A stretch of DNA of 64,000 nucleotides from Acidobacteriota bacterium (GTDB taxonomy: Bacteria; Acidobacteriota; Terriglobia; Acidiferrales; UBA7541). How positions within the stretch are numbered: the stretch's first letter is position 1; each line of letters begins with the position of its first letter. Location of the stretch: contig JABCZR010000007.1 of NCBI GenBank assembly GCA_013289585.1, positions 124,001 to 188,000 on the forward strand, written 5' to 3'. The position numbers and the translations under genes are program-made. Positions 16,795-20,737 of this stretch are shown piece by piece. A model generated the notes under the pieces. It was given only the letters and a program-made list of their open reading frames with translations. It was not told where the DNA came from and did not search any database.

Positions 16795-17077
16795 TCCCAT
16801 TTCTCCTCGCTCAAACTTCATGGCTGAGTCCACTTCCGGTACACCCCGGAATGCTACTGCCGGGAATCGCTTTGATTCGGGAAACCTACGGATTATAGGA
16901 AAAGAAGCCGTACATCCGCAAGGCGTTACACGGTGTTGACTTTACGACCTGAGGAATTTCGCCCGCGGCCTATCATCTATTCCCTTCGCAGCTTCCGGGA
17001 TCCCACGTGCTCCTGGAACCTCTGATGATAGGATGAGTTTCGCACAAAAAGAGTGGCACGTAAGAGGAAGATTTTTC

Positions 17078-17827
17078 ATGCCTGGAATAAATACAATAAA
17101 TGCTGAGTTCCCGGAAAAGGCGCCGCTTTCGGACAAAGTCGCCGTGGTTACCGGCGGCAGCCGCGGCATCGGCCGCGCCATCGCCCTTCGTCTCGCCTCG
17201 CTTGGAGCTTCCGTGGCCATCTGTGGCCGCAATCAGGCAGCGCTCGAGAGGTCAGCCGAAGCTCTCGACAAATCCGGCAGTCCCATCTTCTCCCTTGTCG
17301 CCGATGTAACACTTCCCGCCGACGTCTCCAGCCTCATCTCCAAAACGGAAGCCACGCTCGGCCCCATCACTATCCTCGTCAACAACGCCGGTATCGGCCT
17401 TTTCGGTCCGACTCACGAAAAGACCGAAGCCGACTGGGATCGCGTGCTCGATTCCAATTTGAAGAGCGTGTTTCTCGTCTCTCGCGCCGTTGTGCCTTCC
17501 ATGATCCGCCGCGGCGCCGGCGATATCATCAACATCAGCTCGCTCGCTGGCAGGAACACCTTTGCGGGCGGCGGCATCTATTGCGCTTCCAAATGGGGCG
17601 TCATCGGACTGTCCGGCTGCATGGCCGAAGATTTGCGCGATCAGGGCATTCGAGTCAGCGTCATTTGCCCGGGCAGCGTGGCCACGGAATTCTCCGGCCG
17701 CGGCCCAAAGGACCCTTCGGAGGTTTTGCGCCCCGAGGACGTGGCCCATGCGGTGGCAGCCATCGTCACGCAGGGCCCGCAAAGCTTCATCAGCGAAATC
17801 CACCTTCGTCCCGTGCGCAAATCCTGA
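17078..17827 (+). CDS. Short-chain dehydrogenase/reductase
   Basis: NAD(P)-dependent oxidoreductase of about 249 residues. The Rossmann motif is VAVVTGGSRGIGRAIALRLA, the NNAG motif is LVNNAGIGLFGP, the catalytic Ser lies in INISSLAG and Tyr-x-x-x-Lys is YCASKWG. CPGSVATEF follows, as in FabG-like and 3-ketoacyl reductase relatives. The basic residue right after the second strand (CGRNQAAL) suggests NADP(H). ATG 17078 has AGAGGAAG upstream and removes an unlikely 15-residue extension. It precedes marR by 67 bases, but marR has its own promoter. Substrate unknown. Confidence 0.87.
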   Translation: MPGINTINAEFPEKAPLSDKVAVVTGGSRGIGRAIALRLASLGASVAICGRNQAALERSAEALDKSGSPIFSLVADVTLPADVSSLISKTEATLGPITILVNNAGIGLFGPTHEKTEADWDRVLDSNLKSVFLVSRAVVPSMIRRGAGDIINISSLAGRNTFAGGGIYCASKWGVIGLSGCMAEDLRDQGIRVSVICPGSVATEFSGRGPKDPSEVLRPEDVAHAVAAIVTQGPQSFISEIHLRPVRKS

Positions 17828-17859
17828 GTGGCCACTCCCGGAGCGTGGAAATTTCCCCC

Positions 17860-17888
17860 TTTACATTAGTCGTTGTAACGACTATACT
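17860..17888 (+). promoter_or_regulatory. marR promoter with embedded palindromic operator
   Basis: TTTACA, 17 bases, TATACT forms a strong promoter 7 bases before the marR ATG. Inside it lies TAGTCGTTGTAACGACTA (17867-17884), two perfect 8-bp arms around a 2-base centre. It covers the spacer and the first bases of the -10 box. Such a site is where a MarR dimer would block RNA polymerase, so autorepression is the natural reading. Confidence 0.72.
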
Positions 17889-17894
17889 CATACC

Positions 17895-18356
17895 ATGAAC
17901 TCCCTTTCCAAGCTTTCACGGGCCTCCATCTCCCTTGAAAACCAGATCTTCGTGGCCCTCCTGCGAGCCGCCGACTCCCTCGGCCAGGAAGCCGAGCAGT
18001 TGGTGAAAGCCGCCGGGCTTAGCGGCGCGCAATACAATGTCCTGCGCATTCTTCGCGGCGCCGAACCTGCTGGCCTGGCCTGCCGGGGCATCGGCGACCG
18101 CATGATTTCTCACGATCCGGACATGACTCGCCTTCTCGACCGTATGGAGAAGCGCGGCCTGATCACCCGGGAGCGCCAGACCGACGACCGACGCGTGGTC
18201 AAGACGCGCATCACGCCGCGAGGCCTCACCCTTCTAAAGACTTTGGACCAGCCCGTGCACGACCTTCACAAGCGCCAGTTCCGCCACATCCCAGCGACGC
18301 GCCTGAAGTCTCTGGGCCGGCTGCTGGAGGAAGTCCGCGCGCGCAAGCAGGGCTAG
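17895..18356 (+). CDS. MarR family transcriptional regulator
   Basis: 153-residue winged-helix repressor. The order is dimerisation helix (ISLENQIFVALLRAADSLGQ), helix-turn-helix (GLSGAQYNVLRILRGAEPAG then LACRGIGDRMISHDPDMTRL), wing with DRMEKRGLITRERQTDDRRV typical of MarR (the D-x-R residues), and a C-terminal helix. The start ATG lies just after a promoter containing an 18-bp palindrome, presumably its own operator. YceI and nitroreductase genes follow in the same direction, suggesting control of a stress response to an oxidant or aromatic compound; the ligand is unknown. Confidence 0.9.
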   Translation: MNSLSKLSRASISLENQIFVALLRAADSLGQEAEQLVKAAGLSGAQYNVLRILRGAEPAGLACRGIGDRMISHDPDMTRLLDRMEKRGLITRERQTDDRRVVKTRITPRGLTLLKTLDQPVHDLHKRQFRHIPATRLKSLGRLLEEVRARKQG

Positions 18357-18426
18357 AAAACATTTTTGGGGCGATTTTCAGAAACACGGCAGTATATTGG
18401 ATTCACGACCACGAGGAGAAAGCAAA

Positions 18427-19035
18427 ATGGGAATCAACTTTTCGCGCATCACTCTTACCGCCGGCCTCGCAGCCGTTCTTTCGCTGCCTGCCGCTGCTGC
18501 CACCGTCAATTGGCAGATCGATCCGCAACACTCTTCCGCGCAATTTTCCGTCCGTCATATGGCAATCTCAACTGTTCGCGGGGCTTTCAACAAAGTGACT
18601 GGCACGATCGCGCTCGATGACAAGGACATCACCAAGTCCACCGTCGACGTCAATATCGACGTCACGACCGTCGATACTCATGAGCCGGGCCGCGACAGCG
18701 ACCTCCGCAGCGACAAGTTCTTTGACGTCGCCCACTATCCTTCGATCACTTTCAAATCCAAAAAGGTCGAGCAGGTGGCGCCCGGCAAACTCAAAGTAAC
18801 CGGCGATCTCACCATTCGTGGCACCACCAAGGAAGTCGTCCTCGACGTGGAAGGTCCCACGGCTCCAATCAAAGATCCCTGGGGCAATCAGCGCTCTGCC
18901 GCCAACGCGACTACGAAGATCAACCGCCAGGACTTCGGCGTGAAGTGGAATGCCACCATGGACAACGGCGGAGTCGTCGTCAGTGACGAGGTTTCCATCA
19001 ACATCGACGTGGAAATGATTCACAAGGACAAGTAA
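18427..19035 (+). CDS. YceI family periplasmic lipid-binding-fold protein
   Basis: 202 residues with a signal peptide (MGINFSRITLTAGLAAVLSL then PAAAA) and the YceI beta-barrel. The opening WQIDPQHSSAQFSVRHMAIS is the family hallmark, followed by DVTTVDTHEPGRDSDLRSDK and FFDVAHYPSITFKS. The barrel binds isoprenoid-type lipids in studied members; expression is often base- or stress-induced. GAGGAG precedes the ATG by 7 to 10 bases. It lies 70 bases after marR, with a possible -10 (TATATT) of its own near 18392, so it may be coexpressed or separately started. Confidence 0.93.
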   Translation: MGINFSRITLTAGLAAVLSLPAAAATVNWQIDPQHSSAQFSVRHMAISTVRGAFNKVTGTIALDDKDITKSTVDVNIDVTTVDTHEPGRDSDLRSDKFFDVAHYPSITFKSKKVEQVAPGKLKVTGDLTIRGTTKEVVLDVEGPTAPIKDPWGNQRSAANATTKINRQDFGVKWNATMDNGGVVVSDEVSINIDVEMIHKDK

Positions 19036-19143
19036 GTCGCACGCTTTTGGGGCGTTCGCAATTGCAAGAACTTAGGAGGGCGGCGCGCTTGTACCGCCCG
19101 CTACTGTTTTGCATCTAATATCTGCCCGTAAAAAAGGGAAAAT

Positions 19144-19749
19144 ATGCTTAAGCCTGCACCCGTAGAATCTCCGGTTCACAATTTGATCCGCGAACGCTGG
19201 AGCCCCCGCGCCTTCGCTGACAAGCCCGTTCCTGCCGACGTCCTGCGCAGCCTTTTTGAAGCCGCGCGCTGGGCCCCCTCCAGCAATAACGAGCAGCCCT
19301 GGGCTTACCTCGTTGCCGCCAAAGCGGACGAGGAGAATTACGCCAAAACACTCGGCGTCCTCGTGGAATTCAACGCCAACTGGGCGAAAAGCGCGCCGGT
19401 CCTCGCGCTCGCCGTCGCCAGGCTGACCTTCTCGAAGAACAATGCCCCAAACCGCAACGCCCCCTACGATCTTGGCGCGGCAACAGCTCTACTTTCTGTC
19501 GAAGCCACCGCGCGTGGGCTCTTCGTTCATCAGATGGCTGGCTTCGATCCGCAAAAAGCGCGTCAAGTTTTTGAGATTCCCACCGATTGGGATGCTTTTG
19601 CAGCATTGGCCATTGGCCACCCCGGCGATGCCGAATCCTTGCCTCAACCTTTAAAGGATCGCGAATTGGCTCCCAGAGTACGCAAGCCGCTCAGCGAATT
19701 TGTCATGAGCGGCCATTGGGGCCATACTGCTTCTTTCCTTTCGAAATAA
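19144..19749 (+). CDS. Nitroreductase family FMN oxidoreductase
   Basis: 201 residues with the family start (VHNLIRERWSPRAFADKPVP), the FMN phosphate site (RWSPRAF) and AARWAPSSNNEQPWAYLVA, which contains the PSSxNxQPW motif. A C-terminal AIGHPG segment binds FMN as in related proteins. It would reduce nitro-aromatics or quinone-like compounds with NAD(P)H, or act in a dehydrogenation pathway; the substrate is unknown. It lies downstream of MarR and YceI, a setting that suggests a shared stress role. A GGGCGG/CCGCCC hairpin at 19078-19099 between yceI and this gene may attenuate read-through. Confidence 0.88.
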   Translation: MLKPAPVESPVHNLIRERWSPRAFADKPVPADVLRSLFEAARWAPSSNNEQPWAYLVAAKADEENYAKTLGVLVEFNANWAKSAPVLALAVARLTFSKNNAPNRNAPYDLGAATALLSVEATARGLFVHQMAGFDPQKARQVFEIPTDWDAFAALAIGHPGDAESLPQPLKDRELAPRVRKPLSEFVMSGHWGHTASFLSK

Positions 19750-19783: not shown

Positions 19784-20737
19784 ATGCACCGCACACTCGA
19801 ATTCCTTCTTCATCATGGATATGTAGTCCTTCTCGCCTGGGTTTTCGCAGAGCAAGTGGGGCTCCCGATTCCTTCCATGCCGCTGTTGCTGGCGGCCGGC
19901 GCGCTTGCGGGCACGGGCCGCATGAGTTTTTTCGCTTCGCTGTTTTACGCCATGCTCGCCGCCCTCGCCGCGGATACGCTCTGGTATCAACTTGGCCGCC
20001 GCAGAGGCATCAAAGTCCTGCAGTTCCTTTGCAAAATTTCGCTCGAGCCGGATTCCTGCGTTCGGCGCACCGAAGGCGTTTTCGCCAAGCAAGGCGCCCG
20101 CTCGCTGCTCCTTGCCAAGTTTCTGCCGGGTTTGGGCACCGTCGCGCCGCCTCTTGCCGGTATCTTTCACATGCGCGCGCGCCGCTTTCTTCTTTTCGAT
20201 GGACTTGGCTCGATGCTCTGGGCGGGCACGTTTCTCGGGCTGGGCTACATATTCAGCGGCCAGATCGAGCGCATCGCCGAGCATCTGGCGTCTCTCGGCG
20301 GCTGGCTCCTGGTTCTCATCGTTGCCGCTCTTGCTGCCTATATCTCTTACAAATTCATAGCTCGTCAGCGATTCCTGCGCGAATTGCGCATCGCGCGTAT
20401 CACCGTGGATGAACTGAAGGAAAAAATTGACGCCGGTGAAGAGCTTGTCATCGTCGACCTGCGTCATTCCATGGACTTCGAAGCCGATCCCGAAACCATT
20501 CCCGGCGCATTCCGCATGGACGCCAAGGAGCTGGAAGAGAAGAACGACCGTTTGCCCCGCGATCGCGAAGTCATTCTTTACTGTACTTGACCAAACGAAG
20601 CCACCAGCGCCCGTGTGGCGCTGCTACTCAGAAGAAATGGCATCAAGCAAATTCGCCCGCTTCAGGGTGGCCTGGAAGCCTGGCGCAAACGCGGCTACCC
20701 GATGGACACTCCCACGCTGGCCGCCGGCGCAAAATAG
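19784..20737 (+). CDS. DedA membrane protein fused to rhodanese, with in-frame TGA (candidate selenoprotein)
   Basis: Residues 1-185 are a DedA/SNARE-associated domain: VLLAWVFAEQVGLPIPSMPL, then FLPGLGTVAPPLAG with the conserved amphipathic re-entrant motif, and several membrane helices. Residues 205-317 are a rhodanese domain (ITVDELKEKIDAGEELVIVD onward). At 20588-20590 the frame has TGA after ILYCT. It then continues PNEATSARVALLLRRNGIKQ and PLQGGLEAWRKRGYPMD to TAG at 20735. DedA-rhodanese relatives read C-x-C-P here, so TGA stands at the second Cys. A hairpin fitting a bacterial SECIS follows at 20605-20623. If TGA is read as selenocysteine the product has 317 residues. If not, it is cut within the active-site loop at 268. 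Sequencing error is the main alternative. Confidence 0.72.
20605..20623 (+). promoter_or_regulatory. Candidate bacterial SECIS hairpin
   Basis: CAGCGCC (20605-20611), loop CGTGT, GGCGCTG (20617-20623): seven Watson-Crick pairs. The apical loop starts 21 bases after the TGA, and its second base is G. Both agree with the known bacterial SECIS pattern (loop about 16-37 bases after UGA, G within the first two loop bases), which SelB would bind. The hairpin lies within the rhodanese coding sequence, as bacterial SECIS elements do. Confidence 0.55.

Follow-up and report, generated by a model that had tools for sequence, protein, structure and literature searches.

Rhodaneses whose C-x-U motif has selenocysteine (Sec) as its second chalcogen are already catalogued: Table 1 of a 2026 selenoprotein catalogue (PMC13188914) gives them as "Rhodanese-like domain-containing protein form 3", NCBIfam family NF041203 (rhodanese_LYCAU), and the reference sequence of this family appears in the accessible text of PMC9312934 as "COG0607 form 2". 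Fusions of a DedA (VTT) membrane domain to a rhodanese have also been described, in a 2023 survey (PMC10127716) whose accessible text calls their link to a lipid substrate unclear, and Pseudomonas aeruginosa PA1209 is one such fusion (PMC12893004). The 2026 catalogue comprises, by its own statement, 119 (sub)families; none of the entries in its Table 1 is a DedA or VTT protein, and the main text contains neither term. Similarly, no DedA selenoprotein is named in the accessible portions of PMC1794560, PMC12013277, and PMC2398784, the second of which reports three known and no new selenoprotein genes for the acidobacterium Occallatibacter riparius, and a search of the open-licence PMC literature returned no description of a DedA-rhodanese or VTT-domain selenoprotein.

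We examined a 64,000-nucleotide stretch of an Acidobacteriota genome (hereafter "the window"), which encodes at 19784-20737 on the forward strand a DedA(VTT)-rhodanese protein of 317 residues, counting a Sec at position 269 and ending at a TAG stop. The VTT/DedA domain spans residues 29-155 (19868-20248; Pfam PF09335 VTT_dom, 55.8 bits against a cut-off of 33.9), and the rhodanese domain, which also has PDB matches, spans residues 207-302 (20402-20689; PF00581, 51.4 bits against a cut-off of 22.2). The latter match runs straight across the single in-frame TGA of the gene at codon 269 (20588-20590), which is followed by 48 sense codons and the TAG at codon 318, as the initial annotation had read the frame. 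The residues around the TGA are ILYCT-U-PNEATSARV, giving a C-T-U-P loop motif in which the first Cys is Cys267 (20582-20584). A plain open reading frame stops at 20590 (19784-20590, 268 aa), and because it ends at residue 268 the gene would be expected to be named as an ordinary DedA protein. Elsewhere in the window TGA is an ordinary stop, ending 14 of 31 hand-picked long open reading frames; this bears out the initial annotation on the other TGA codons and led us to reject genome-wide UGA recoding.

Compared with these known systems, the window protein falls closest to NF041203, its best NCBIfam match, which covers 108 of the 126 profile positions and shares the rhodanese with Sec as second chalcogen of C-x-U (LYCTU in the window protein). 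However, the match scores 96.4 bits against a curated cut-off of 115, for which reason we do not file the protein under this family, and none of 41 near genomes yielded a match above that cut-off. At 126 positions, the profile also leaves no room for a DedA domain, and it is by profile that the two groups are set apart here. Cys-type fusions, such as PA1209 and proteins named "DedA family protein/thiosulfate sulfurtransferase GlpE", have the same architecture as the window protein. Two so-named proteins that we read carry a C-x8-C in the DedA loop and a C-x-C-P in the rhodanese loop, the latter in line with what was initially annotated for DedA-rhodanese homologues. The Cys-type fusions differ in having Cys in place of Sec and usually lack a SECIS-like hairpin. 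TsoB (NF045694), described as rhodanese/DsbD fusion-like, is by its name another rhodanese selenoprotein joined to a membrane-type domain, but has a 572-position profile, a UxxxxU motif, and a different partner, and the window protein scores 17.9 bits against its cut-off of 805. Finally, the DedA flippases of the UptA/COG0586 type share the VTT domain (PF09335 above cut-off), but the fusion family adds two cysteines, C83 and C92, and is without a second arginine linked to phosphate binding. The architecture and the CxU rhodanese type are thus already known, and only the DedA-fused Sec form looks new; the initial suggestion that Sec in this fusion was undescribed appears to hold for that form, but CxU rhodaneses as such had already been catalogued.

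To read codon 269 across the family, we assembled 112 fusion genes, namely 28 loci from near genomes, the best 80 of 392 confirmed relatives from a scan of named genomes, and four plasmid homologues. All 41 near genomes searched gave a match, many of these being to single domains only, and the 28 fusion loci read from them carry TGA in 25 cases and a Cys codon in three. Over the whole set the codon is TGA in 84 genes, TGC in 17, and TGT in 11, with no other codon seen, which agrees with the initial expectation of Cys (28 genes) or UGA at this residue. After removal of duplicates, 91 distinct genes remained, of which 64 have TGA and 27 Cys. Among the best 80 of 392, TGA forms belong, by record title, to Acidobacteriota, Rokubacteria (8), Methylomirabilota/NC10 (4), and one "Deltaproteobacteria", while the 12 Nitrospirota fusion genes in this subset all have Cys. 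One locus titled Betaproteobacteria (L103) has a gene sequence identical to that of L032 from the window's genus, and its title is probably wrong. In the class as a whole, matches with an E-value of 1e-40 or better occur in 266 of 399 genomes. Fifteen fusion matches from the near-genome and class searches were also read: TGA stands at codon 269 in the six that were listed with it, and the nine listed without stops have C-x-C, at least three of them seemingly already among the 80.

The genus of the window itself contains both Sec and Cys forms. Nine Sec/Cys changes are required by a quick tree of 90 rows, five of them forced by well-supported branches, a number that is rough owing to the quick tree method and to long branches (L036, L035, L163); the tree counts switches without giving their direction. 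One Cys gene (L135) retains a complete SECIS hairpin and clusters in the tree with a Sec gene (L145), apparently because Cys replaced Sec there only recently. Beyond chromosomes, 110 of 72,556 plasmid records match the fusion query, 24 of these over at least 80% of its length, and the six plasmid homologues read are all Cys forms. Unannotated plasmid matches were also considered as hidden UGA genes and rejected, as the four read have Cys; three of these records carry only two or three features. No viral relative of the fusion was confirmed among 15 candidate stretches examined. A study of Ralstonia (Cupriavidus) metallidurans reportedly links one of its DedA proteins to selenite action, and this organism has a fusion homologue.

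Downstream of the TGA, a putative bacterial SECIS element lies at 20605-20623 on the forward strand. As initially annotated, it begins 14 nucleotides past the TGA and consists of a 7-bp stem and a 5-base loop with G as its second base (CGUGU, 20612-20616); it folds at −12.5 kcal/mol in context. The SECIS model in the Fig. 2 legend of PMC13188914 specifies a loop of 3-9 nucleotides, a stem of 4-16 bp, a G in the first two loop positions, a spacing of 16-37 nucleotides, and an energy of −7.5 kcal/mol or lower. The window hairpin lies within each of these ranges (a 5-base loop with G in second place, a 7-bp stem, a spacing of 21 nucleotides, and −11.8 kcal/mol when folded alone), also when a stem of at least 5 bp is demanded, as in all our applications of the model. 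Its folding energy by itself is unremarkable (z = −0.52, with 54 of 200 shuffles folding as well), and 148 of 2000 synonymous recodings of the window gene alone pass the model. Hairpin stability was therefore rejected as sole evidence for Sec, and the evidence beyond chance is comparative.

This comparative signal comes from the TGA genes. The model is passed by 62 of the 64 distinct TGA genes, 61 of which have the hairpin at the same place, versus 6 of the 27 distinct Cys genes; the two TGA genes failing the threshold are L036, by 0.3 kcal/mol, and L119. When the TGA genes were synonymously recoded (200 rounds), a mean of 10.2 and a maximum of 19 of the 64 passed. All 64 TGA genes keep the four loop-proximal base pairs, one of them showing a G-C to A-T switch and another a G-U pair; among the 27 Cys genes, these pairs form in 14, 27, 27, and 19. 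Codons S275, A276, V278, and A279 are nearly fixed in the TGA genes, in which mean codon identity beyond that expected from codon usage reaches 0.391 inside the hairpin versus 0.044 elsewhere, while the corresponding excess inside the hairpin of Cys genes is 0.086. Judged by this codon comparison, silent sites are frozen at the hairpin in TGA genes only.

The source genome (4.73 Mb, listed as 97% complete) encodes the machinery for Sec decoding that the initial annotation had proposed to look for. A tRNA-Sec was detected at 65.6 bits (cut-off 47), in agreement with ARAGORN, and selA (572 bits, cut-off 268), selB (363 bits, cut-off 242), and selD (353 bits, cut-off 125) all exceed their curated cut-offs. 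The same genome carries a formate dehydrogenase alpha subunit gene (FdhA; L194, G000:C26:27947-31096) with an in-frame TGA in the context ARVUHGP, which fits the UHxP motif that PMC13188914 gives for the known formate dehydrogenase selenoprotein, and is an internal control for Sec decoding in this genome. Co-occurrence was evaluated in the 149 class genomes among the fusion matches listed (266 had a match): selB was above cut-off in 74 of the 81 genomes with TGA in the fusion match versus 20 of the 68 without (Fisher p = 1.1e-15, kinship ignored), where TGA was in most of the 81 cases taken from the match listing. Among the seven TGA genomes without selB above cut-off, five are listed as less than 90% complete, one has selB in pieces (G006), and one is listed at 90% (G203). 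One genome of the class (G035) has two selB genes above cut-off.

These observations bear on two other readings of the codon. That a suppressor or mischarged tRNA reads the UGA as Cys or Trp is extremely improbable: Cys is indeed the alternative residue in 28 of the 112 genes, but tRNA-Sec, selA, selB, and selD stand alongside an FdhA with UGA in this genome, the SECIS-like hairpin is conserved at the published spacing, and UGA is a stop elsewhere. Alternatively, UGA could be a real stop that leaves a 268-residue protein cut within its rhodanese domain, the remainder being a pseudogene or the product of a sequencing error. Such a reading would agree with the standard code, with the plain open reading frame, and with a hairpin that is by itself not exceptional. 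We nevertheless consider it highly improbable, since the same TGA recurs in 64 distinct genes in which the downstream frame is conserved as protein, the codon is only ever TGA or Cys, and the TGA genes share a SECIS element and frozen silent sites, with Sec machinery present. The pseudogene version was rejected on the conserved downstream frame, and a sequencing error at 20588-20590 is very unlikely with the same UGA found in many assemblies. Overall, the comparative sequence evidence from frame, homologues, SECIS, and frozen silent sites supports the selenocysteine codon first proposed for this gene, and we regard it as nearly certain (roughly 90%) that the TGA at 20588-20590 encodes Sec, decoded in a membrane rhodanese.

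In the alignment of the 91 distinct genes, near-universal Cys/Sec occurs at four positions and no others: C83 (codon 20030-20032) and C92 (20057-20059), each present in all 90 ungapped rows, the remaining row being cut at this point, and C267 and C/U269, both present in 91 of 91. The next commonest such position is found in 11 genes. Cys conservation in the best 80 of 392 named loci is partly selected, as these were found by patterns containing C92 or the LYCTC stretch, although the LYCTC pattern works against TGA forms. Loci found by genome search and plasmid homologues found by tblastn (including those of P. aeruginosa and Xanthomonas) are free of this pattern bias and have the same four chalcogens. 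In contrast, C83 and C92 are both absent from seven of seven non-fused DedA proteins.

The DedA domain of the fusions is altered at a second site. Non-fused DedA proteins (7/7) have Arg at the positions of both K112 and G118, spaced like Arg130 and Arg136 of YghB, which are likely phosphate-binding according to the accessible text of PMC10127716; this equivalence rests on spacing and on alignment with the non-fused proteins, YghB itself not being aligned. In the 91 distinct fusions, K112 is kept, with Arg instead in one, but position 118 is Gly, Ser, Asn, or Ala in every case. The fusions thus have a Lys and a non-basic residue where COG0586-type flippases have two basic residues spaced by six at the second re-entrant helix. 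As far as these alignments go, an arginine associated with lipid-phosphate binding is gone from the fusion family. The loop that carries C83 and C92 is basic (residues 75-113, seven K/R versus three D/E) and the linker before the rhodanese only slightly so (residues 195-215, six K/R versus four D/E); by the positive-inside rule both would be cytoplasmic.

An AlphaFold2 model built from 37 aligned proteins (mean pLDDT 83.3, pTM 0.73) has a C-terminal domain that matches solved rhodaneses with Z up to 17.1. The solved-structure matches include a persulfide dioxygenase-rhodanese fusion and NADH- or CoA-persulfide reductases; these Foldseek and VIA-align matches fall mostly within the rhodanese part of the protein, and a fold match shows no function. 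In the model, the helix after the active loop starts at residue 273, leaving a loop of six residues (C267-E272). Loops of this length are typical of sulfurtransferases, and Cys267 is presumably the persulfide-carrying Cys of the rhodanese loop. From its fold, the protein is a candidate sulfurtransferase, as first proposed.

The arrangement of the four chalcogens suggests how such a protein might work. As in other rhodaneses, Cys267 would take up sulfane sulfur to form a persulfide, which the selenol of the neighbouring Sec269 would attack, releasing sulfide or a reduced product and leaving a Cys-S-Se-Sec (selenenylsulfide) bond between the two residues. The Cys83/Cys92 pair in the basic DedA loop could then re-reduce this bond. 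The DedA part, having lost the arginine linked to lipid-phosphate binding, would serve as a membrane anchor or relay partner and would have ceased to bind phosphate lipids in the normal manner. We regard such a membrane-anchored persulfide/thiol relay as plausible, if at somewhat less than even odds.

The same features weigh against a role as a regulated undecaprenyl-phosphate flippase, in which CxU would be a redox switch of the DedA transporter instead of a catalytic centre. A flippase function has been proposed for the DedA proteins of COG0586, a group that includes rhodanese fusions whose purpose is described as unclear (PMC10127716); this favours the role if the window protein belongs to that COG. 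All 90 ungapped rows of the fusions have D64, and 86 of 89 have E23. One gene upstream is YceI-like, by Pfam name only, and YceI proteins bind polyisoprenoids. However, the sixth position after K112 has lost the Arg of non-fused DedA proteins, which in turn lack C83 and C92, and the window protein scores 51 bits against a curated cut-off of 250 for the UptA model (NF052604). Furthermore, in P. aeruginosa the deletion of dedA genes other than PA4029 left fosmidomycin susceptibility unchanged, PA1209 being one of the six, as reported in the accessible text of PMC12893004. A flippase role thus appears unlikely.

Genes upstream of the fusion raise another possibility. In the window, an SDR gene, a MarR-family regulator, a YceI-like gene, and a nitroreductase-family gene lie in a row at 17033-19749. 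The nitroreductase gene (19144-19749, PF00881), 34 nucleotides before the fusion gene, is a probable operon partner, and the YceI-like gene (18397-19035, PF04264) and the MarR-family frame (17562-18356, PF01047; true start probably downstream of 17562), all on the forward strand, are conserved neighbours in near relatives. Within the best 80 of 392 named loci, MarR, YceI, and nitroreductase genes all occur within 3.5 kb upstream in 28, and a nitroreductase gene is directly upstream in 30 of the 74 with at least 700 nucleotides of upstream sequence. A pirin-family gene adjoins or lies near the fusion in an acidobacterium with the Sec form (L123) and in P. aeruginosa and Xanthomonas with the Cys form (L196 and L197). 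These neighbours hint, weakly, at redox or electrophile stress, and the CxU rhodanese could accordingly act with nitroreductase, SDR, and MarR proteins on quinones or electrophiles and not on persulfides. Nonetheless, the nitroreductase-adjacent loci are mostly near relatives, L125 being the one from Nitrospirota, Sec loci examined at greater distance have other neighbours, and gene context is weak evidence of chemistry. An electrophile- or quinone-stress selenoprotein is therefore possible but doubtful.

Returning to the persulfide relay, a broader and more speculative form of it would have the DedA flippase fold turned into a chalcogen redox device, in which the gained C83 and C92 and the Cys/Sec pair make up a four-atom membrane relay that would reduce or move sulfane sulfur, as persulfide or polysulfide, and that might be coupled to quinones or sulfur transport. 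Under this tentative scenario, Sec may be the long-standing state in Acidobacteriota, Rokubacteria, and Methylomirabilota and may have reverted to Cys repeatedly. Four points are new here at the level of sequence: the Sec form extends over several phyla, its hairpin is frozen, the family has a signature of four chalcogens, and an arginine has been lost. Taken together, these results point towards an apparently uncatalogued selenoprotein subfamily that is widespread in several bacterial phyla and common in uncultured soil and groundwater bacteria. The four invariant chalcogens and the lost arginine suggest a testable function for the DedA-rhodanese fusion, and because Sec and Cys forms alternate within one genus, the family offers a natural experiment on what leads bacteria to retain or lose Sec.
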